DNA of 64,000 nt, from the NCBI RefSeq assembly GCF_014852585.1, contig NZ_JACVBX010000003.1, positions 124,001 to 188,000 on the forward strand, in the 5' to 3' direction. The position numbers and the translations under genes were made by a program. How positions within the stretch are numbered: position 1 is the first letter of the stretch; each line of letters opens with the position of its first letter. Source of the stretch: Pseudomonas sp. PDM18 (lineage in GTDB: Bacteria; Pseudomonadota; Gammaproteobacteria; Pseudomonadales; Pseudomonadaceae). Positions 32,891 through 43,311 of the stretch are shown here, piece after piece. The notes under the pieces were generated by a model, which saw only the letters and a list, made by a program, of their open reading frames with translations, did no database searches and was not told the origin of the DNA.

Positions 32891-33715
32891 TTACGGGTAA
32901 CTGAACCGCTTAACCAGCGTCAGTTCCCCCGGCTGGCGCATCGGGATCAGGAAGGACTCCTGCTTCTCGTTCACCGTCCCCTCTTCCGTGACGATGGTCA
33001 CCTGCGCCGTGGTCAGCGGCTTGGCCGCGTTCACGTCGCCCGAGCTTTCATCCGAGCTCCAGCCGCCGCCGTAGTAGTTCACGTAGACCAGGTACTGCCC
33101 CTTGAGCGGAGTCGGGCTGGCGATGATTTCCGGGCCGTAGCCGGTGGTCACGTCGACATCCTGGGCAGCACCATTGGGCAGCGACCGGTTGCCGTACCAG
33201 ACGTGCCCGCCATCGGGCGTCACCAGGTGCAGGTCAAGGTCGGTGTTGTCCGAATCCCAGGACAGCATGACCCGCAGCTTGGCCGCCACCTCGCCGCCAC
33301 CACCGCCGTGGTAGAACTGCACGCGCTTGCGCTGCTGGCCGTCCGGGCTGACGACTTCGACGCTGTTGGGGCCCGCCGGGAAGGCGAACGGACGGTCGAA
33401 CTTGCCGTCGCTCTCCACCCGCATCGGCATGGCCACGCCATTGACCACCAGGCGCGCCGGCTCCTTGCTGTCCTTGGGCAGGCCACGGATTTCGCCACGG
33501 ATGCGCGCCGTATCGGACTGGTCCTCCCGCGCGTTCACTGAAGACGCCGGGTAGTTCACCGTCTGCCGGAAGTCGGCCTTGTCGCCATCGCCCGAACGCC
33601 AGCCGCCCAGCGGGGTGTCCAGGCTGATCGGCGATTCGGCGGCCTGCGCGCCCAGCGGGATCAGGCTGGCGAGCAGGGACAGGTGGAGCGCGTGGGCGAG
33701 TTTCATGCTGATCAT
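32891..33715 (-). CDS. magF: MagF, DUF2135 periplasmic protein of the alpha-2-macroglobulin operon
   Basis: 274-residue predicted secreted protein (signal peptide MKLAHALHLSLLASLIPLGAQA) with a C-terminal DUF2135/YfaP-like domain: LSWDSDNTDLDLHLVTPDGG, then YGNRSLPNGAA and YLVYVNYYGGG. In P. aeruginosa MagF was found in the inner-membrane complex with MagA, MagB and MagD. ATG 33715 overlaps the magE stop by 4 nt; ATG 33706 is also possible and has a GGA at better spacing. It is a clear paralogue of MagA at the other end of the operon. Last gene of magABCDEF; the palindromic region lies downstream. Confidence 0.88.
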   Translation of the reverse strand: MISMKLAHALHLSLLASLIPLGAQAAESPISLDTPLGGWRSGDGDKADFRQTVNYPASSVNAREDQSDTARIRGEIRGLPKDSKEPARLVVNGVAMPMRVESDGKFDRPFAFPAGPNSVEVVSPDGQQRKRVQFYHGGGGGEVAAKLRVMLSWDSDNTDLDLHLVTPDGGHVWYGNRSLPNGAAQDVDVTTGYGPEIIASPTPLKGQYLVYVNYYGGGWSSDESSGDVNAAKPLTTAQVTIVTEEGTVNEKQESFLIPMRQPGELTLVKRFSYP

Positions 33716-35355
33716 TCCAGTATCAGGCGACGGGCCAGGCTTTCCACGTAGCCCTCGTCTTGTCCATTGGGGTGCGCCTGGAAGGCCAGGTGCAGGTATT
33801 CATGAGCCAGGTCGAGGCGGTCCTGCTGGGAATACAGGCCACGCACATAGATGCGCTGGCGTTCGCGGTCGACGTAGGGCCGGCCACTGCTCAGGCGGCA
33901 CACGGCGAAGGATTGCAATTCTTCATAACCAGCCTCTGTTTCCAGGCGCGGGCGCCAGTCGCGGCGCTGCACCTTCAGCCAGCGCTCGGCCTCGGGCAAT
34001 GGTTGGCAGGCGGCAATCGGATTGCTCCAGCGGCTGAGGCTGGTGCGCAGGAAGGCACGGGCGAGGATCGCGTCATAGCGCAGGCCCTTGGCGGCCTGCT
34101 CCTGGGCGTCGCGCCAGGACAGCTTCGACTGCCCCGCCTCGTCCGAGTGGTAGGTGACGGTGCCGCCGGCCAGCACCAGATCGGCAGTCCAGGCCGCGAT
34201 ACCGCGTGCCGCCTCGCTGGCCGGACGCGGCGCCACGCGCTGGCGTTGACTGCTGTCATCGATGCTCAGGCAGTCGCCGCGCGGGGCGCCGTTCTGCAAC
34301 AGGTAGGTGCGGATAGTCACCGCCAGCGCCTTGGCCGCTTCCGCTGGCGTGGCGGAGGCTTCGCGGTCGAGCACGCGGGCGACATATTCTTCGCGGGACA
34401 GACGGGCCGTCAGGCGTGGCCCCTGCGCACCGCGCTCAAAGAAAAGGTCACCACTGCTGTTCACGTCGAGTCGAACGCCATTGGCGAACACCACATTCTG
34501 CCGGCCGGCCAGCAAGCCTTCGACCGCCGGCTGATTGCGCGCGTCGTAGACCTCTTTCAATGGATAGCGGCTGAACAGCCCGACCTCCACACATCGCCCC
34601 GCATCGCTGGGCCACGGCGCCGGCAGCGCAGCGCCGATGGCGTTGCCGTACTTGGCCAGTACCGTCTTGCTGGTGCCCGGCCCACGCGCCCACAGCGGCG
34701 TGCCATCCACCAGCCAGCCGGCGAAGCCTCCCTCCCGCTCGCCGCCTTGGTCCCAGCTCCAGGTCTTCACCCGCAGGCGTCCACCCAGGGCGGCGGGAGC
34801 GCGGCCTTCGTCGGCGGCGAGGCTGACATCCAGCAGCACCTTGCGCGCCTGCTCCTGGGCCGGCAGGTGCTGCAGTTGATCGAGCAGTTCGGCGACCGGA
34901 ACTTCGGTCTGCGGCGCCAGCTTGTCCAGCTGGGCGATCCAGGCCGGCGCGTGGCGCGCCTGCCAGTATTGCTGCCAGACCGAGCCGTCGATGCCCAGGC
35001 GCTGCGGCTGGAAGTACAGACCGCAGGACTTCACCAGCGCGGCGTCGCGCTCGATGCTCTGCCCGGCCGTGCAGCAATAGACCTCTTCCCTGCTTTCACC
35101 TCGGCACGAGTAGGCCGGCTCCTGCTGGCCGGTATCGCTGAGCCAGGCATAGACGAACAGCTTCCACAGGCTGCCCAGCGGAGCCTGCAGGTCGGCCGGC
35201 AACGGCTGGCGGTCGAGCACCTGCTGCGGCCCGAGCCGCAGCAATTCGTCGCCCTGCGCGGTACGCCAGGCGAGCTGCGCCGGCTCTTGCGAGCCGGGCG
35301 CCGCCAGGGCACTCAGTGGCAACAGCAGGATCAGCCCGGCCAGACGCGCACGCAT
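33712..35355 (-). CDS. magE: MagE, DUF2300 protein with PBP-like, SpoIID-like and HExxH segments
   Basis: 547 residues with a signal peptide (MRARLAGLILLLPLSALA). Family DUF2300 (E. coli YfaQ), no established activity. Reading the sequence suggests three parts. (1) About 20-250: a penicillin-binding-protein-like series, SLWK (Ser62, Lys65), LVKSCGLYFQ (Ser110-Cys-Gly) and RVKTWSW (Lys197-Thr-Trp), in PBP order and spacing but with Asn and Gly replaced. (2) About 290-440: a SpoIID/LytB-like stretch LSREEYVARVLDREASATPAE then AVTIRTYLL. (3) C-terminus: DLAHEYLHLAFQ, an HExxH zinc motif at 518-522 with acidic residues after it. These assignments are inference. Starts 3 nt after magD. Confidence 0.85.
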   Translation of the reverse strand: MRARLAGLILLLPLSALAAPGSQEPAQLAWRTAQGDELLRLGPQQVLDRQPLPADLQAPLGSLWKLFVYAWLSDTGQQEPAYSCRGESREEVYCCTAGQSIERDAALVKSCGLYFQPQRLGIDGSVWQQYWQARHAPAWIAQLDKLAPQTEVPVAELLDQLQHLPAQEQARKVLLDVSLAADEGRAPAALGGRLRVKTWSWDQGGEREGGFAGWLVDGTPLWARGPGTSKTVLAKYGNAIGAALPAPWPSDAGRCVEVGLFSRYPLKEVYDARNQPAVEGLLAGRQNVVFANGVRLDVNSSGDLFFERGAQGPRLTARLSREEYVARVLDREASATPAEAAKALAVTIRTYLLQNGAPRGDCLSIDDSSQRQRVAPRPASEAARGIAAWTADLVLAGGTVTYHSDEAGQSKLSWRDAQEQAAKGLRYDAILARAFLRTSLSRWSNPIAACQPLPEAERWLKVQRRDWRPRLETEAGYEELQSFAVCRLSSGRPYVDRERQRIYVRGLYSQQDRLDLAHEYLHLAFQAHPNGQDEGYVESLARRLILE

Positions 35356-35358
35356 GGA

Positions 35359-38300
35359 TTACTGGACCTTGATCTTCGCCAGGGCCGGCTGCTGCTCCAG
35401 CGCCTGTTCTTGCGGCGCATAGAGGCGCTGGTAGCGCGCCGGCGGCAGGACGAACTCGCCCTTCTGCGAGAAGCGGACCAGATGGCGGAAGCGCAGCTCG
35501 CCGCTGAGGGTATCCACCGGCACGCCGTAGAACAGGTCACCCGGCTCGTTGCGCGCACGCTCCAGGCTGGTCGCCTCGACGCCGCCCAGGCCGCTGATCT
35601 GCAGGCCCCAGGTGGTGCGCTCGACATCCGCGCCCGGCGGCAGCGGCACTTCCAGCATGCCGTAGCGCAGGGCTTGGGCCTGCTCGGTGGTCAGGGTCAC
35701 TTCGTCGAGGTACAGCTCGTCGCTGGACAGCGGCTTGTCGCCCAGAGCCTCCGCACTGAAGGCGAAAGCGTCTTCGCCCGGCACCAGGCGCAGCAGGCGG
35801 CGCTTGATGGTGACCGGCAGCTGGCTGGCCGGGGTTTCGGCACTGCGGAAGCTCACGGAAGCATTGAGCGGACGCGACGGCGCGGCGCTCAGGTCCAGCT
35901 GCGCCGGCACCTCCTTGCCCTGCCAGCGCCAGAAGGCATCGCCGGTGGTGCTGTGGCTTTCCTTCCAGTCCGCGACCGGCTTGGGCAGCTCGGCAGCCGG
36001 AGCGTCGGCCACGGCGCGCTGCATCCAGGTCAGCGCCAGGGCGCGTTCGAGGGTGGACTGCTGCGGCGCCAGGCTCTGCAGCAGAGCGCGGGCGCGGCTG
36101 GCATCCACGCTGCCGCTATAGAGCTGCACAGCGCGGGCGAATGGCTGGTCGCTGGTGTTGAGCTTCAGACGAGCGGCATCCAGTTGCTTGGCGAAGCCTT
36201 GCGGTAGCGCGATCTTGTTCTGCTCGGCCAGGCTGGCCGTCAGCACGCGCGCCACCGCCAGGCCCAGCTCGGAGTCCGGCTGGCCCATGACCAGGCTGTC
36301 CTCGCTGTCGAAATCGTTCACCGACTTCGCCGCCTCGCCGCTGCCGGTATTCTCCAGGTCGGTGAGCAGGCCGCTGACCAGGGTCTGCACCGGCAACTTC
36401 ATGTCGCGGGCGAAAGCCAGGATCAGCGCGCGTTGCAGCAATGGCGTGGCACTGGCACGCGCCGAGTACAGTTCCAGCACGCGCTGCCAGTGGTCCGGCG
36501 GCAGCTGGATTTCCAGCGCGCGGCTGGCATGCCAGTCGGCGTAATAGGCGTAGGCGGTGAGGAAGGCGTCGTTGTCTTCACCGCCCCACCAGGTGAAGTA
36601 GGCATCCGGGCCGGCCATCTGCACCAGGCGCAGACGGCTGGTCTGCATGATCAGGCGCAGGCGATCGCGCACGCGCGGTTCGCCATTCGCCAGCATCGGG
36701 TAGGCAACGCTCAGCGGCAGCAGCTGGCTGGCGGTCTGCTCGACGCCACCCCAGGGGTAATTGAGCAGCGAGTCGAGGTTGCCACGTAGCAGGGCCTGGG
36801 CGCTGTCATCTAGGCGCAGGCTGACGTCGCGGGCATCCGCCGGCAGCTGCAGCGGGGTGTTCTGTGCGTTGACCTGCAGCGGCCGGGACTGCAGCACCTG
36901 CCAGCTGTCCGCCACCAGGCTGAAGTGCACGCCGAGGCTGTCGCGTACCTGCCCGTCCTGGCGCAGCTCGACGCTCCACTCGCCATCATTGAGCGGCTGT
37001 TGCGGCAAGGCGATGTAGTTGACGCCACGCTTGAGCTCCAGCGCCTGGGTCTTCTCCGCGCCGTTGGCCCGGATCAGCAGCTCGGCCTTGGTGTCCTGCT
37101 CGCCCTGGTTGAAGACAAACAGGCCGAGGTCCGGCACATCGCCCGTGCGGAAGCGTTTCGGGCCACTCCATTTCAGGTACAGCGGCTTCTCGGAGCGGAT
37201 GAACTGCTTCTTCTGGCCGACCTGCCCCTGGTCATCCATGGCGCGGGCGGTGATGCGCCAGCGGGTCAGGGAGTCGGGCATGCGGAACTTGAACTGGGCC
37301 TTGCCGTTGGCGTCGGTGACCAGTTCCGGCTCCCAGGCGGCGGTGTCGACTTCCTCGCGGCGCGGGCGTTCCAGCACCTTCACGCCGCGCTCGCTGCGGT
37401 TGGCGCGACCGGGCGCGCTGGGCGTGCCGGGCAGCGCCACGTCGTAACTGATGAACGCGAGACTGGCGCTGGTGCGCACGTTGTTGCGGCGTGGGTGGTA
37501 GAAGAACTGGTCGATGCCCGGGGCGATCTCCGGCTGCAGCGCGTAGATCATCTCGTCGACCACGCTGACAGTGAGGTGGCTGGAGACGGGCTTGCCGGCG
37601 TAGGCGGTGTCGAGATTGACAGTGACCGTCTCGCCCGGCTCGTAGCGCTCCTTGTCGGTGCTGACGGCGATTTCTACCTGCGGTACCGCAACCTTGATGC
37701 CGGCGTTCTGGAAGCTGTAGTCGCCGCTGCGGGTGTAGAGCACGGAGAAGGTCAGGTTCGGCGAGAACTCCGGCTTCACCGGGATGCGCGCGCGGTACTG
37801 GGTCGGGTTGAGCTTCTCCAGCTTCAGCCAGTCGCCTCCCTTGGACAGCAGCGCGGTGGCCTCGACCTTGTCGCGCTCCAGCGACAGCAGCGCGTCATCC
37901 ACCGGCTCGGGGAAGGTGATCAGCGCCAGCGCTTCTTCGCCGGCCTTGTACTCGGGCTTGTCGAGGACGATTTCCACGGTGCCCGGCACGGCCTTCACGC
38001 CATCGCCGCTGACCGAGTGGCCGGTGCCGCCGAGCAGCTGGCCAGCCTTGTCGCGCAGCTCGACGCTGTAGGTGCCGGGCTTGTCGAAGGTGATCGCGAA
38101 CTTGCCGTCGGCCACCGCGCCGTCGCCGCTGCTGCGGTCTTCCAGGCGCAGCCAGCGATAGGCGGTGGGCTGGATCTGCGTCTGCTGTTCGGCGGCGTAG
38201 CTGAACTCGACCTTGTCCCCGGCGGCGCTGAAGCGCTGCGGTGCGCTCACGCGGTAGCGTGCGGCGCCGCGCTCGATGAGGATTTCCTTGCTGGTCTTCA

Positions 38301-39912
38301 CCCGGTAAGCCGCGCCATCGCTGGCAAACACGGTGAGCATGTAGCGGCTGGGTTTTTCCGCTGCCGGCAGATCCAGCGCGGCGCGGCCCTGTTCGTCGGT
38401 GGTGATCTGCGCGCTGCTCAATTCAACGGGGAACTGGCCGAGGTACTGCAGTTCGTTGTCCACCATGGACAGCTGCTGGGCGCGCAGGCTCAGCTCCAGG
38501 CGGGCGTTGGCCACCGGCTTGCCGTCCGGGTAGAGGAGGATCAGGTTGCCCTTCACCGGCTCGCCAGTCTTGAAGTCCGGCTTGGCCAGGTCGAGGGAAA
38601 TCTCGAAGTGCGGCTTGATGTATTCGGCGACGCGGAAGGCGCTGCTGTAGGTCTGGTCGCGGTAGTCGAAGCGCAGCTCGTAACCGCCGGCCACGGCGTT
38701 GGCCGGCAGCTGGAAGCGGCCGTTGGTGCCGCTCTTGGCGTCGTACTTGAGGTCCAGGGTCTGCAGCGTGGTGCCGGCGGCGTCGATCACCGACAGGCGC
38801 AGCGGCGCGCTCTGCGGCGCCTGCGATTCGCGGGAATTCTTGAACTCGCGGCCGACGATCTTCAGCGATACCCAGTCGCCCGGACGGTACAGCGGGCGGT
38901 CGGTGAAGGCGTAGAGCTTGGTGTCGTAGATTTCGCTGTCGTAATAGAAGTTCTCGGAGACGAAGACACCGCCCTCCTCGTCCTCACCGATCACGAAGGA
39001 GCGCTCGGGGCTGACGTGCTGCAGGCGCAGCAGGCCGTCGGCATCGCTGCTGCCGCTGCTCATCACGCCCAGGCCGTCGGTCCACAGCACCTTGGCGCCG
39101 CTCACCGCCGTGCCTTCATGCTTGCGCGCGGTCCACACCAGCAGTTCGTTGCCGGCAATCTTGCTCACCGCGACGCTGTTGGAGACGAACACCACGGTGG
39201 TCGCGCGGTATTTGCCGACCAGCGCCTCGACCAGATAGAGGCCCGGCTTCAGCTTGCCCAGCGGCACGTAGACGTTGCCCGGAGCGACGTTGATGAACTC
39301 GCTGGAGGAACCGGCCAGGGTGACTTCCTTCGGCGGCTGGATGGGCTTGGCATCCCACAGCGGGTAGCGGAACTGGCTGACCATCGGCAGGCCGGGGATC
39401 GGTGCGTACTGCGGCTGCGCGTCGTAGGGGGTCGGCGCCTTGATCGCGTTGCCCATCTTCAGCTCAGGCACTACTTCGGTGACCTGCTGGCGCGATTCGT
39501 AGGAGAAGGTCCGCTGCATCACCCGACGCGACTTGCGGTACCAGTTGTCCCACAGGTAGGCCAGGGTATTGGACAGGCCCTCGCCCTTGAACTGCCCCTC
39601 GGACAGCACGCGGTGCAGGTTCTTCTGGCGCTTGAGGAAGTCCAGCGGCTGGTCGATGCGGTAGACGCGGATGTCGGCGCCGCCATACGGCTCCATGCGG
39701 TAGCGACGGTAGTCGCGGCCCGGCGCTTCCAGGCGCACCTTGGCCACCTCGTCGGAAGCGAAGCTGCTGTCGGCGAGCAGGAAGAACGACTCGCCGGCCA
39801 TGGGCGTGTAGCCGCTCACCGGGACATCGTCGTCCGCCTGCACGATCGCGGGCGCGGCGGCGAACAGGCCGGCGCAGGCCAGGGCAGCGGCAATGCCGCG
39901 CAGCACGTTCAT
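35359..39912 (-). CDS. magD: MagD, bacterial alpha-2-macroglobulin homologue without thioester cysteine
   Basis: 1517-residue secreted protein with signal peptide ([20 protein letters not shown], cut near VQA). It has macroglobulin (MG) domains, an MG2-type segment ([20 protein letters not shown]), the A2M domain near 850-930 ([20 protein letters not shown]) and a thioester-domain-like helical region from about 1040. There the usual GCxEQ reads [10 protein letters not shown]: Gly1056 replaces the cysteine, so no thioester can form, as in the YfaS/MagD branch. In P. aeruginosa MagD lies in the inner-membrane/periplasmic fraction, binds neutrophil elastase, is processed from about 165 to 100 kDa and is controlled through RetS and RsmA. 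ATG 39912 overlaps the magC stop by 4 nt. Confidence 0.95.
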
Positions 39913-40541
39913 CGGGTCAGGAAGGACAAGCGATAGACGCCGATAAAGTTGGGATTGGATTCGTCGGGTATCCATCGGGTGTCCTTCCATGTCATGAGTT
40001 GTTGCAGGCTGACCGAGCGCATGCCGTTGTCGGTCGCCGTACGAGTTCCAGTGTGATAAGCAATGTCGCGGCCCATCCAGATCATCAGATGCTGGTCATC
40101 GCCCTGGTCGAAGAACATCAGGTCGCCGGGGCGCGCCTGGTTGAGGTCGCGGCCAACGAGCTGGCTGTTGTATTGAATGAGTTTGATCGCGTTGACGTAG
40201 GGGCCGGTCTTGCCGCCGCCCTGCTGCCAGGTCTGCGCGAGATTGCGCTGTGCGTCGGACAGTTCCAGCTCCGGCGGCAGGTAGCGGTTGGACATGCCGT
40301 TGGCGCGCAGCCACTTGGCGTCATGCACCTTCAGCGCCTCGTTGGCGGCAAAGCGCACGAGGCCGGCGCAGTCCTGCTGATACCAGCGCGGGTTCGGACC
40401 GCGGCGCAGCTGCTCCTCGGCGATGCGCACGAACCAGGCGCGGAACACCTGGGTCTGCTGCGCATCCAGCGCCGGCTCCGTTGCGTGCGCCAGCGTGGCG
40501 AAAAGCAGACCGGCCAGCAGCATGTGGGGTTTGCGGATCAC
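39909..40541 (-). CDS. magC: MagC, DUF1175 protein with NlpC/P60-like Cys/His pair
   Basis: 210-residue exported protein of the DUF1175/YfaT family (signal peptide about residues 1-21, [14 protein letters not shown]). The core resembles NlpC/P60 papain-like enzymes: [18 protein letters not shown] gives a candidate nucleophile Cys58, and [22 protein letters not shown] gives His151. That points to a peptidoglycan or amide hydrolase, but family activity is unproven. The start is GTG 40541, whose GTGA overlaps the magB stop by 4 nt and which follows GGAAGG; ATG 40552 and 40523 are alternatives. The longer frame upstream is out-of-frame magB sequence. Confidence 0.85.
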
Positions 40542-42289
40542 AGCGCCTTCCATTCCAGCGGCAGCCACTCCCATTCGCCGCTGGGTTCGCTGCCGGCCGG
40601 CAGGGTCAGGGCGTAGGAGCCGTTGCCGGCGAGGGTCTTCAGGCGTGGCAGGAGCAGCGTATCGGCGGCGTTGCGGAATACCGGCTCGATGTCCTGCGGC
40701 AGGCTGTCCAGGGTCTCGCGCTGGAGCAGTGCGGACAGCGTCTTGGGCGCCAGGTACGCGGGCACCAGGGCGTCCTTGGGCAGCACGTCGGCCAGCGGCG
40801 GGTAGCGCTTGGCCAGGGTGTTGCGGGCCTTGTCGAGCAGCTTGTCGTCGATGGAGAACAGCAGGGTGTTGCCATCGCGCAGCAGGCTGACGCGGAAGAA
40901 GCCGTTGCCGCTGACCTGGTCGGGATTCTCCGCCTCGCTGGCCGGGTACTGGCCGAAGCGCGAGCTGACCTGACGCTGCCACAGGCGACCTTCGCCCTCG
41001 GCACGACTTTCAACCTCGAAGGCGCCGGCCTCCACGTTGGCCTCGTAGGCGCCGATCATGCTGCCGAACAGCTTGCCCAGTTGCTCGTCCAGCTCGGGGC
41101 TGGCCGGCGCGTCGAGCTTCACCGCGAGCAGCGGCGAGTGCAGGCGCGAGTCCGGGTACCAGCACAGGCCGGCAGCGCCGGAGAGGTGCTCGGAGAAGGC
41201 GGCGGCCATCTTCTGCTCGGCGCCCAGCTTCACCAGCATGTTGTCGTACAGGCCCGGCGTGACCGGCAGCGCGACGCAGGCGCTGGCGCCCATGGGCATG
41301 GCCTGCCAGACAGGGGTGAAGTCCAGGTCCGGCTGGCGGGCAACCTCGTTGAGCGCCAGGTAGCTGTGCCAGCCGTCCTTGCCCTGTTCGAAGCGCACGC
41401 CAGCGAAGGTCGGGATGAAGCGCTGGTAGCCCATGGCGAGAACACCGGCGCCCAGGGTGATGCGCTGCTTCAGCTCACCACGCGGCTCCAGGGCGAAGTC
41501 CTTGGCGAACAATGGCTCGCCTTCCAGCGCGCTGCCCAGGTCCTTGACGACGGCGGCATCAGGCTCGCCCAGGTTGTCGTAATCCGGGTTGGGGAAGAGC
41601 ATTTTCGGGTTCGACAGAACCAGCATCTGGTCCCCGCGGGAGACGAACAGCAGGGTCTTCTCGGCGCCATAGCGCAGGCTGTAGACCGGCGTGGCGCTGC
41701 CCTTCACCTGGATTTCCGCGACCTTCTTCAACTGGCTGTCATCGGCCGCGATTTTGGCCAGCGGCTCCAGCACCTTGGCAAGACCGCCGCGCTTGAGCAC
41801 CACCATGAAGTCGCGCAGACGGCCATCGGCACCGCGCCACAGGGCAACCTGGGCCGGCTGGTCGAGCAGCTCCTCGATCACGCTGTCCTTCAGGGTCAGG
41901 TCGTGTTCGTAGACGATGCGCCGCAGGGTGCCGGTCAGGCCCAGGCGGTCGGCGTTGTTCTCGTAGTAGAAGACGAAGTCCTCGGTGAGCACGTCGCGCA
42001 GCAGCGGCACTTCCAACACGGCCTTGGGCAACTGGCTGAGGGAGGCGCTTTCGATCAGCGCGTCGGGGCGCTTGAGGTCGCGGACCACTTCCGGGCTTTC
42101 CGGCGCTTCCAGGGTACCCACCGGCGCCGAATGGAAAGCCGGGATCAAGCCGAAAGCCAGGGCCAGGCCGCCGGCGACCAGCGCGGCGGCGAGCGCGCCG
42201 ATGGCGATCAGCGGACCACGGCTCGGGGCCTGGGCCGGCGTCGGCGTGGGGGTGCTGTCTTGGCTGCTGGAGGGCGTATTGTCGCTCAT
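40538..42289 (-). CDS. magB: MagB, DUF2138 inner-membrane protein
   Basis: 583-residue protein of the DUF2138 (YfaA-like) family. The N-terminal 30 residues are Ser/Thr/Pro/Gln-rich and cytoplasmic, followed by one transmembrane helix ([20 protein letters not shown]) and a large periplasmic domain without recognisable catalytic motifs ([19 protein letters not shown] near its start). In P. aeruginosa MagB is a partner of MagD in the inner membrane. ATG 42289 is chosen; ATG 42310 is in frame with no better ribosome-binding site. It lies 38 nt after magA, the loosest junction in the operon. Confidence 0.85.
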
Positions 42290-42327
42290 GGATCGCTTGT
42301 CCCGTGTCATCCCTGCGAGGGGCGAAT

Positions 42328-43140
42328 TCAGTAGTTGAAGGTCTTCACCAGCACCAGATCACCGATGGTGCGCATGGGCACCACGAAGGTCTCGCGCTTC
42401 TCGTTGACGGTATTTTCGTTGAACACCAGGTTGATCTCGGCGGTGATCACGTCCTGCTCGTGGTTGTCTTCCTGGAAGTTGTAACCCTGGCTGGCGTTGT
42501 AGTTGCCCCAGTAGTTCACGTAGACCAGATAGGTGCCGTGCAGCGGCGCGGCCATGGTGAACATTTCCGGGCCGGGGCCATCGACGCCGTCCGGATCGAG
42601 GCCGCCGCCATTGCTCAGGCGCGGCCGCGCCCAGAAGGCATGCTGGCCATCGGGCGTGACGATATGCAGGTCGAGCTCGGCCTTGGGGTCGTTCCAGCCC
42701 AGCGCCAGGCGCAAGCGCGGCGCGACCCGGTGGTTGTTGGCCTCATAAAACTGGATGCGCTTGAGGGATTTGCCCTCGGCGCTGGCCACCTCGACGCTGT
42801 TGCTGCCGGCGCCGAAGTTGTACGGACGGACGAACCTGCCTTCGCCGTCGGTATAGAGAGGGAGCGGGTTGCCGTTGACCACCAGGCGCTGGGCGCGGTC
42901 GACGCCGGCCACTTCGCGCAGGTGGCCTTCGATCAGGCTGCGGCCACGGGAACCACCCCGGTCGATAGGGGGCGTGGGATAGGCCACGCGGGGCACGCTG
43001 GGATCACCGGTCAGGCCGGAATAGCGCCAGCCGGCGGTGGGACTGGAGAGGTCCGCACTCGGCTCGGCAGCGACCGTCGCAGCCAGGAGACTGGCTGACA
43101 GAAAAAAGACGGCACGAACCATCCGACGCGTGAGCTGCAT
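42328..43140 (-). CDS. magA: MagA, DUF2135 periplasmic protein, first gene of the mag operon
   Basis: 270-residue secreted or membrane-anchored protein (signal VRAVFFLSASLLAATVAA) with a C-terminal DUF2135/YfaP-like domain: LGWNDPKAELDLHIVTPDG and YLVYVNYWGNY, closely parallel to MagF. Known partner of MagD. ATG 43140 is preferred because AAGGA lies six bases upstream; the same AAGGA with its flanks (CAAGGAATG) resembles the GGA core of RsmA-binding sites, in line with the RsmA control reported for the operon. No clear promoter was identified in the 170 nt up to the AEC gene. Confidence 0.86.
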   Translation of the reverse strand: MQLTRRMVRAVFFLSASLLAATVAAEPSADLSSPTAGWRYSGLTGDPSVPRVAYPTPPIDRGGSRGRSLIEGHLREVAGVDRAQRLVVNGNPLPLYTDGEGRFVRPYNFGAGSNSVEVASAEGKSLKRIQFYEANNHRVAPRLRLALGWNDPKAELDLHIVTPDGQHAFWARPRLSNGGGLDPDGVDGPGPEMFTMAAPLHGTYLVYVNYWGNYNASQGYNFQEDNHEQDVITAEINLVFNENTVNEKRETFVVPMRTIGDLVLVKTFNY

Positions 43141-43311
43141 GAACATTCCTTGATCGTGCATAGCGGGGGGAGCCAAATGTAACCGGTCTTGTCGACGCGC
43201 GGAACGGCGTTCGCGCGGCGTTGCGACTCAGGGCAATCTTTCAGAAATTTCCTACAAGCCGAATAGCCTTTTTTCGCAACACCCATTGGAAGAATCTCGA
43301 CTTCCCCCAAG

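Follow-up and report, generated by a model that had tools for sequence, protein, structure and literature searches.

What does a secreted DUF2300 protein do beside a bacterial macroglobulin? The question is raised by magE, a gene of the mag operon that lies in a 64,000-nucleotide stretch of the Pseudomonas sp. PDM18 genome (contig NZ_JACVBX010000003.1, positions 124,001 to 188,000 of the forward strand; hereafter the window, whose numbering is used throughout). The gene is a single open frame of 547 codons with an ATG start (window:33712-35355, minus strand), and its product belongs to Pfam DUF2300 (PF10062; 248.3 bits against a cut-off of 25, E 1.9e-74). A first-pass annotation made from the sequence had described MagE as a fusion of a degenerate penicillin-binding protein (PBP)/beta-lactamase-like part, a SpoIID-like part and an HExxH metallo motif. 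Translation placed these motifs at the residues given there, and the outline of an SxxK-type serine fold, a SpoIID-like part and a gluzincin-like HExxH domain is supported by the analyses below. The reading that we favour, held at a little short of even confidence, is that MagE is periplasmic and built of three modules, and that its conserved core, residues 446–547, resembles a zinc metallopeptidase and works with the macroglobulin MagD, likely maturing MagD or a protein bound to it, with wall-directed folds in front. The well-predicted third module, its place as the conserved core and operons with a stand-alone "mini-MagE" are new here.

Three modules and their invariant residues

Conservation was read from 87 full-length sequences (the window protein, 80 loci and six others including E. 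coli YfaQ), which are mostly from Pseudomonas and hence not independent, and from 11 sequences that include six stand-alone proteins of another class but not E. coli YfaQ. The features of the gene, all on the minus strand, are as follows.

33712..35355, minus strand: magE, 547-residue secreted DUF2300 protein, orthologue of E. coli YfaQ (translation, Pfam DUF2300)
35299..35355, minus strand: apparent Sec signal peptide, residues 1–19 (by eye; predicted local distance difference test score, pLDDT, below 50 over residues 1–22 of the model)
34606..35295, minus strand: module 1, class D beta-lactamase/BlaR1-sensor-like serine fold, residues 21–250
35161..35172, minus strand: SxxK motif SLWK, residues 62–65 (S62 and K65 in 87/87)
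35020..35028, minus strand: SxN-position motif SCG, residues 110–112 (87/87)
34759..34767, minus strand: KTG-position motif KTW, residues 197–199 (K197 and T198 in 87/87, W199 in 86)
34021..34488, minus strand: module 2, SpoIID-like, residues about 290–445 (Pfam SpoIID over residues 316–372; PDB profile matches)
34360..34362, minus strand: Glu332, opposite the catalytic SpoIID Glu in the profile alignment to 5txu_A (87/87)
33715..34020, minus strand: module 3, minigluzincin-like zinc-metallopeptidase domain by prediction, residues 446–547 (AlphaFold2, AF2, model; fold search; stand-alone homologues)
33790..33804, minus strand: HEYLH, residues 518–522, in predicted active-site helix 510–524 (H518, E519 and H522 in 87/87 and 11/11; models)
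33742..33756, minus strand: Glu534 to Glu538, possible third zinc ligand on the next helix (both Glu in 87/87 and 11/11; helix 534–546 in models)

Module 3 was modelled by AF2 with a pLDDT of 94.5 and a predicted template modelling score (pTM) of 0.88, and a fold search with this model gave minigluzincins as the nearest structures, with weak scores. As in gluzincins, the HExxH motif sits in the predicted active-site helix, and Glu534 or Glu538 of the next helix may provide the third zinc ligand. The HExxH, the HP that follows it and the two Glu are invariant in 11/11 sequences; E. coli YfaQ has YP in place of HP (Tyr for His528), and Tyr520 and Leu521 of HEYLH vary once each among the 87. Assignment to the metzincins (HExxHxxGxxH) was rejected: the Gly position is Phe in 86 sequences and Leu in one, and the third His, being Tyr in E. 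coli YfaQ, is ruled out as a zinc ligand.

The residues S62, K65, S110, K197, T198, E332, H518, E519, H522, E534 and E538 are unchanged in all 87 sequences, among them the five (Ser62, Lys65, His518, Glu519, His522) whose conservation the first-pass annotation had named as a check. Overall, 42 of 226 columns are invariant in residues 25–250 and 21 of 100 in residues 448–547. Because the key residues are invariant while few columns overall are, the motifs go beyond chance, and a chance origin is ruled out by conservation in both sets.

The fold search on full-length MagE, which in effect tested residues 21–248 only, gave class D beta-lactamases and BlaR1/MecR1 sensors as the closest structures to the predicted fold of residues 21–250. 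The SxxK serine fold proposed earlier is thus retained, and its placement corrected accordingly. The fold, nucleophile and base (S62 and K65) are those of the SxxK serine acyl-transferase superfamily, and the modelled module could in principle form an acyl-enzyme. In PBPs and class D beta-lactamases the third consensus motif is KTG and the second SxN or SxV. MagE departs from both, with KTW in 86 sequences, KTF in one and SCG in all 87. The term "degenerate" was nevertheless too strong, since Ser62, Lys65, Ser110 and Lys197 are constant and the departures are confined to the third residue of the SxN and KTG motifs.

Module 2 scored 28.2 bits with Pfam SpoIID (cut-off 23) but only 16.3 bits with the stricter NCBIfam model SpoIID_LytB (TIGR02669; cut-off 83.3, E 0.0071); the resemblance to SpoIID/LytB noted earlier therefore holds at the first level and not at the second, and we call the module SpoIID-like. 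A SpoIID match was obtained in 7/7 diverse MagE members (E 10 or better). While a single-sequence search of the PDB with MagE found nothing, a search with a profile of seven MagE proteins (E up to 10) gave three matches only, all to SpoIID (E 0.0021, 0.025 and 0.028). In this alignment Glu332, with which the segment LSREEYVARVLDRE ends, falls on residue 101 of chain 5txu_A, counted in the profile alignment; E101 is the essential glutamate of Clostridioides difficile SpoIID (PMC6221140). A second collinear segment, at profile positions 417–440, is in the right order and can be taken as suggestive, its score being below 0 bits. The zinc site of SpoIID (C140, H145) is cited as present only in the C. 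difficile protein (PMC6221140), and by eye MagE has no clear counterpart of its residues; Cys362 of MagE is invariant (87/87), and the profile alignment to SpoIID ends before it.

Cysteines 84, 94, 95, 111, 255, 362, 450 and 486 are invariant in 87/87 (window 33712-34020 and 34591-35295), a sequence pattern that suggests disulfides and a periplasmic protein. Pfam DUF2300 matches two stretches of MagE, window 34747-35100 in module 1 and 33766-34125 in the SpoIID-like tail and module 3. An internal duplication is not supported: hhalign of residues 80–205 against 405–547 gave probabilities of 0.7% and 0.4% in the two directions, and other region pairs 0.1–0.4%. The RefSeq name "tandem DUF2300", given to YfaQ, looks like a model artefact.

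Stand-alone HExxH modules in mag operons

In a survey of 398 genomes of the phylum, PF10062 was found in 16. Two matches, as in full MagE, occur in nine of them; six have a single match lying in a short frame, and the last has a weak match. The six mini-MagE (mini-E) genomes all belong to one class (6/48 genomes of that class); three more mini-E genomes come from one genus in the window's own class (3/40 genomes of that order). The frames of these nine genomes measure 134–237 codons from stop to stop, their start codons and signal peptides having been read by eye and being unsettled, and all nine align solely with the end of MagE, from residue 395–456 to residue 545–546 depending on the locus. 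MagF follows mini-E in 9/9; MagD precedes it in 7/9, and the contig ends in the other two (G057, G089). MagE residues 1–445 gave no match at E 0.01 in the nine genomes, some of which are incomplete (G125 at 78%), while both control genomes were matched; SpoIID was found in 0/9. Since it occurs alone in mag operons, the HExxH module is the more widely kept piece of MagE compared with the wall-enzyme-like part.

In a MagD tree of five of the nine mini-E operons and ten full-E rows, one branch with support 100/100 parted the two kinds; of the mini-E operons outside the tree, two were cut off and two were fetched later (one of those also cut). Under midpoint rooting, the only rooting used, mini-E operons fall on either side of the root, which makes a single later fusion of modules 1 and 2 onto module 3, with the mini form as ancestral, the simplest story; domain loss is the alternative.

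Two matches were dropped. The G019 match to the mini-E profile (23 bits) lies opposite a frame that reads IspH-like by eye. The weak PF10062 match of the survey, in G009 (G009:C1:2204914-2205141; 20.5 bits), is below cut-off and contains five stops, and no other mag genes were found within the 18 kb examined around it; it may be a chance match or a decayed remnant.

The mag operon and published phenotypes

The other genes of the operon are also on the minus strand.

42328..43176, minus strand: magA, DUF2135 (Pfam)
40538..42310, minus strand: magB, DUF2138 (Pfam)
39909..40553, minus strand: magC, DUF1175, NlpC/P60-like Cys and His, start codon uncertain (Pfam, alignment of 12)
35359..39990, minus strand: magD, type II macroglobulin, next gene upstream of magE (Pfam)
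32891..33715, minus strand: magF, DUF2135 (open reading frame list, Pfam)

The run from magA to magF (DUF2135, DUF2138, DUF1175, A2M, DUF2300, DUF2135 by Pfam), with magE in fifth place, is the mag operon of Pseudomonas, and the stop of magE is overlapped by the magF start codon in the open reading frame list. Among 80 full-length loci, MagD lies upstream in all 80, a MagF/MagA-like gene downstream in 78, and MagB and MagC are present in 79; these loci, also used for the conservation counts, are the 80 best of 384 and, with one exception, carry Pseudomonas in their titles, so that counts over them say little on breadth. The immune proteins that type II bacterial macroglobulins resemble carry a thioester, which the bacterial proteins lack; a motif search found no CxEQ in MagD. 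MagC has a weak NlpC/P60 match (22 bits, Pfam cut-off 23), and the Cys of its DCA motif and the His of QHLM are kept in 12/12 aligned operons; judged from these residues it is possibly a second wall peptidase of the operon. PADLOC gave no match and PHROGs one weak match (E 0.031).

MagE is 53% identical to E. coli YfaQ. In E. coli K-12 (L107:2649-8903) yfaQ is intact and the adjoining macroglobulin gene yfaS is annotated as a pseudogene. YfaQ has been described as having an N-terminal transpeptidase-like and a C-terminal SpoIID-like part, and its deletion gives wider cells and a profile linked to mepK, mepS and nlpI mutants (PMC12282094); a term search did not bring up which E. coli strain was used. 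The transpeptidase-like and SpoIID-like reading and the envelope role put forward in the first-pass annotation were thus already in print for YfaQ; its observation is confirmed, and its interpretation is partly supported and partly published before, with the binding or cutting of peptidoglycan or peptides by MagE as a conjecture. Deleting magE in P. aeruginosa alters how much MagD is present, and higher-mass forms of it appear; no stable MagD–MagE complex was seen, and the authors, who thought MagE cytoplasmic, suggested a chaperone or signal-peptide-removal role (PMC5764988). That localization sits beside the apparent signal peptide found here, and the text and Figure 6 legend of the same paper disagree on whether deletion of magC or of magE affects MagD processing. 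A role of P. aeruginosa MagD against some peptidoglycan-targeting effectors of the type VI secretion system is also published: the protection is chiefly against VgrG3, limited against Tae1 and absent against TseH, MagD is dispensable against B. thailandensis, and type II macroglobulin function is called unclear (PMC12663445). The main texts of PMC12282094 and PMC5764988 do not contain "metallo", "HExxH" or "zinc", and no mention of a metallopeptidase module of MagE was found in the literature searched, supplements not covered; the YfaQ domain table or figure in the supplements could hold the third module.

Possible roles of MagE and comparison with known systems

The computed support for the favoured reading consists of anatomy, conservation, operon linkage and the stand-alone core. 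Because the HExxH domain is kept beside MagD in both operon kinds, the task shared by MagE and MagD most likely resides in it. Module 3, with its HExxH and glutamate helix, would bind zinc and mature MagD, or a protein that MagD holds, by cleavage or in another way. In the full-length operons of Pseudomonas, E. coli and others, two peptidoglycan-directed folds were probably fused ahead of module 3 in one event, a serine domain of the class D beta-lactamase/BlaR1 type and a lytic-transglycosylase domain resembling SpoIID. Through them the peptidase and MagD would reach the cell wall, where the two folds would add recognition of the wall or chemistry on it. With a conserved zinc-peptidase-like core in MagE, both the MagD forms described in the literature and the protection from toxins that target the wall would have a definite cause open to testing. 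The intact yfaQ beside a pseudogene yfaS in K-12 weighs against this reading insofar as MagE is supposed to serve MagD only.

The same K-12 arrangement, the envelope phenotype of the yfaQ deletion (PMC12282094), what modules 1 and 2 show in fold and in invariant catalytic residues, and the NlpC/P60-like Cys and His of MagC would all fit an enzyme that chiefly remodels peptidoglycan by acyl-serine and lytic-transglycosylase chemistry, as proposed for YfaQ, with the HExxH domain as a structural or binding appendage. We regard this as unlikely, though to be taken seriously: KTW and SCG deviate from transpeptidase motifs, the supposed appendage has an invariant HExxH and two invariant Glu, and in nine genomes it is encoded alone in the mag operon with modules 1 and 2 unmatched, so that the existence of mini-MagE argues against a wall-only role. 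A non-catalytic folding or secretion factor for MagD, as the authors of PMC5764988 suggested, would account for the altered amount and higher-mass forms of MagD and for its adjacency in 80/80 full-length loci and in the seven of nine mini-E loci long enough to show it. Three invariant sets of catalytic residues would, however, be unusual in a pure chaperone, the apparent signal peptide puts MagE outside the cytoplasm, and a protein of 165 kDa that loses 21 residues shifts only slightly; this explanation appears improbable. That the motifs are relics of dead enzymes kept as a binding scaffold is suggested by Trp or Phe for Gly in KTG, Gly for Asn in SxN and the lack, by eye, of clear SpoIID zinc-site residues. 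We give it very little credence, since Pseudomonas and E. coli proteins alike keep nucleophile, base, catalytic Glu and HExxH without exception, and HExxH is also invariant in another class.

BlaR1, in which a class D-like domain and a gluzincin protease are joined, provides a working model that is bold and unproven. By this analogy MagE could be a soluble periplasmic counterpart of BlaR1, whose class D-type and SpoIID-type domains would read wall damage, for example stem peptides freed or glycan denuded by an attacker's wall-cutting toxin, and switch on a minigluzincin that cuts MagD, arming the macroglobulin at the breach; stand-alone mini-MagE would be the ancestral, unsensored form. We consider this extension quite a long shot.

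Returning to the three-module protein with a peptidase-like core, each part can be compared with known systems. YfaQ, the E. coli orthologue, has the same operon place and the same motifs along its whole length; it differs in Tyr for His528 and in its pseudogene neighbour in K-12, and the published main text names two modules. The minigluzincins (selecase, proabylysin, projannalysin) share with module 3 a length of about 100 residues, HExxH in an active-site helix and a following helix with Glu. They are its top structural neighbours, with sequence similarity at E about 0.1 only; unlike them, module 3 is secreted, has invariant cysteines 450 and 486 and is fused to or co-encoded with a macroglobulin system. 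Module 1 shares fold, SxxK, second-motif Ser and third-motif Lys-Thr with class D beta-lactamases and BlaR1/MecR1 sensors but has SCG and KTW for SxV/SxN and KTG. Module 2 has the catalytic-Glu segment of SpoIID/LytB and possibly the C-terminal segment (negative score), but lies under the NCBIfam cut-off, shows no clear equivalent to the zinc site of the C. difficile protein and occurs in a Gram-negative, Pseudomonas-like genome.

Whole BlaR1, like MagE, has both a serine domain akin to class D and a gluzincin metalloprotease, and both halves are among the structural matches of MagE. BlaR1 is an integral membrane receptor, and in BlaR1/MecR1 the metalloprotease is N-terminal and the sensor C-terminal, an order with which the matched chain ranges in the structure searches agree. 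MagE has the opposite order, an apparent signal peptide and a SpoIID-like module, which sets it apart from such receptors. Type I macroglobulin genes, for their part, often adjoin a PBP1c gene (PMC3328433), a pairing of a macroglobulin with a penicillin-binding-type protein that resembles MagD and MagE. MagE is distinct from PBP1c. Pfam searches of the window genome found one A2M bait-domain match, belonging to MagD, and no BiPBP_C (PBP1c C-terminal) domain. By this comparison, bacterial macroglobulins of either kind would have an SxxK-type wall protein as partner, PBP1c in one case and MagE in the other.
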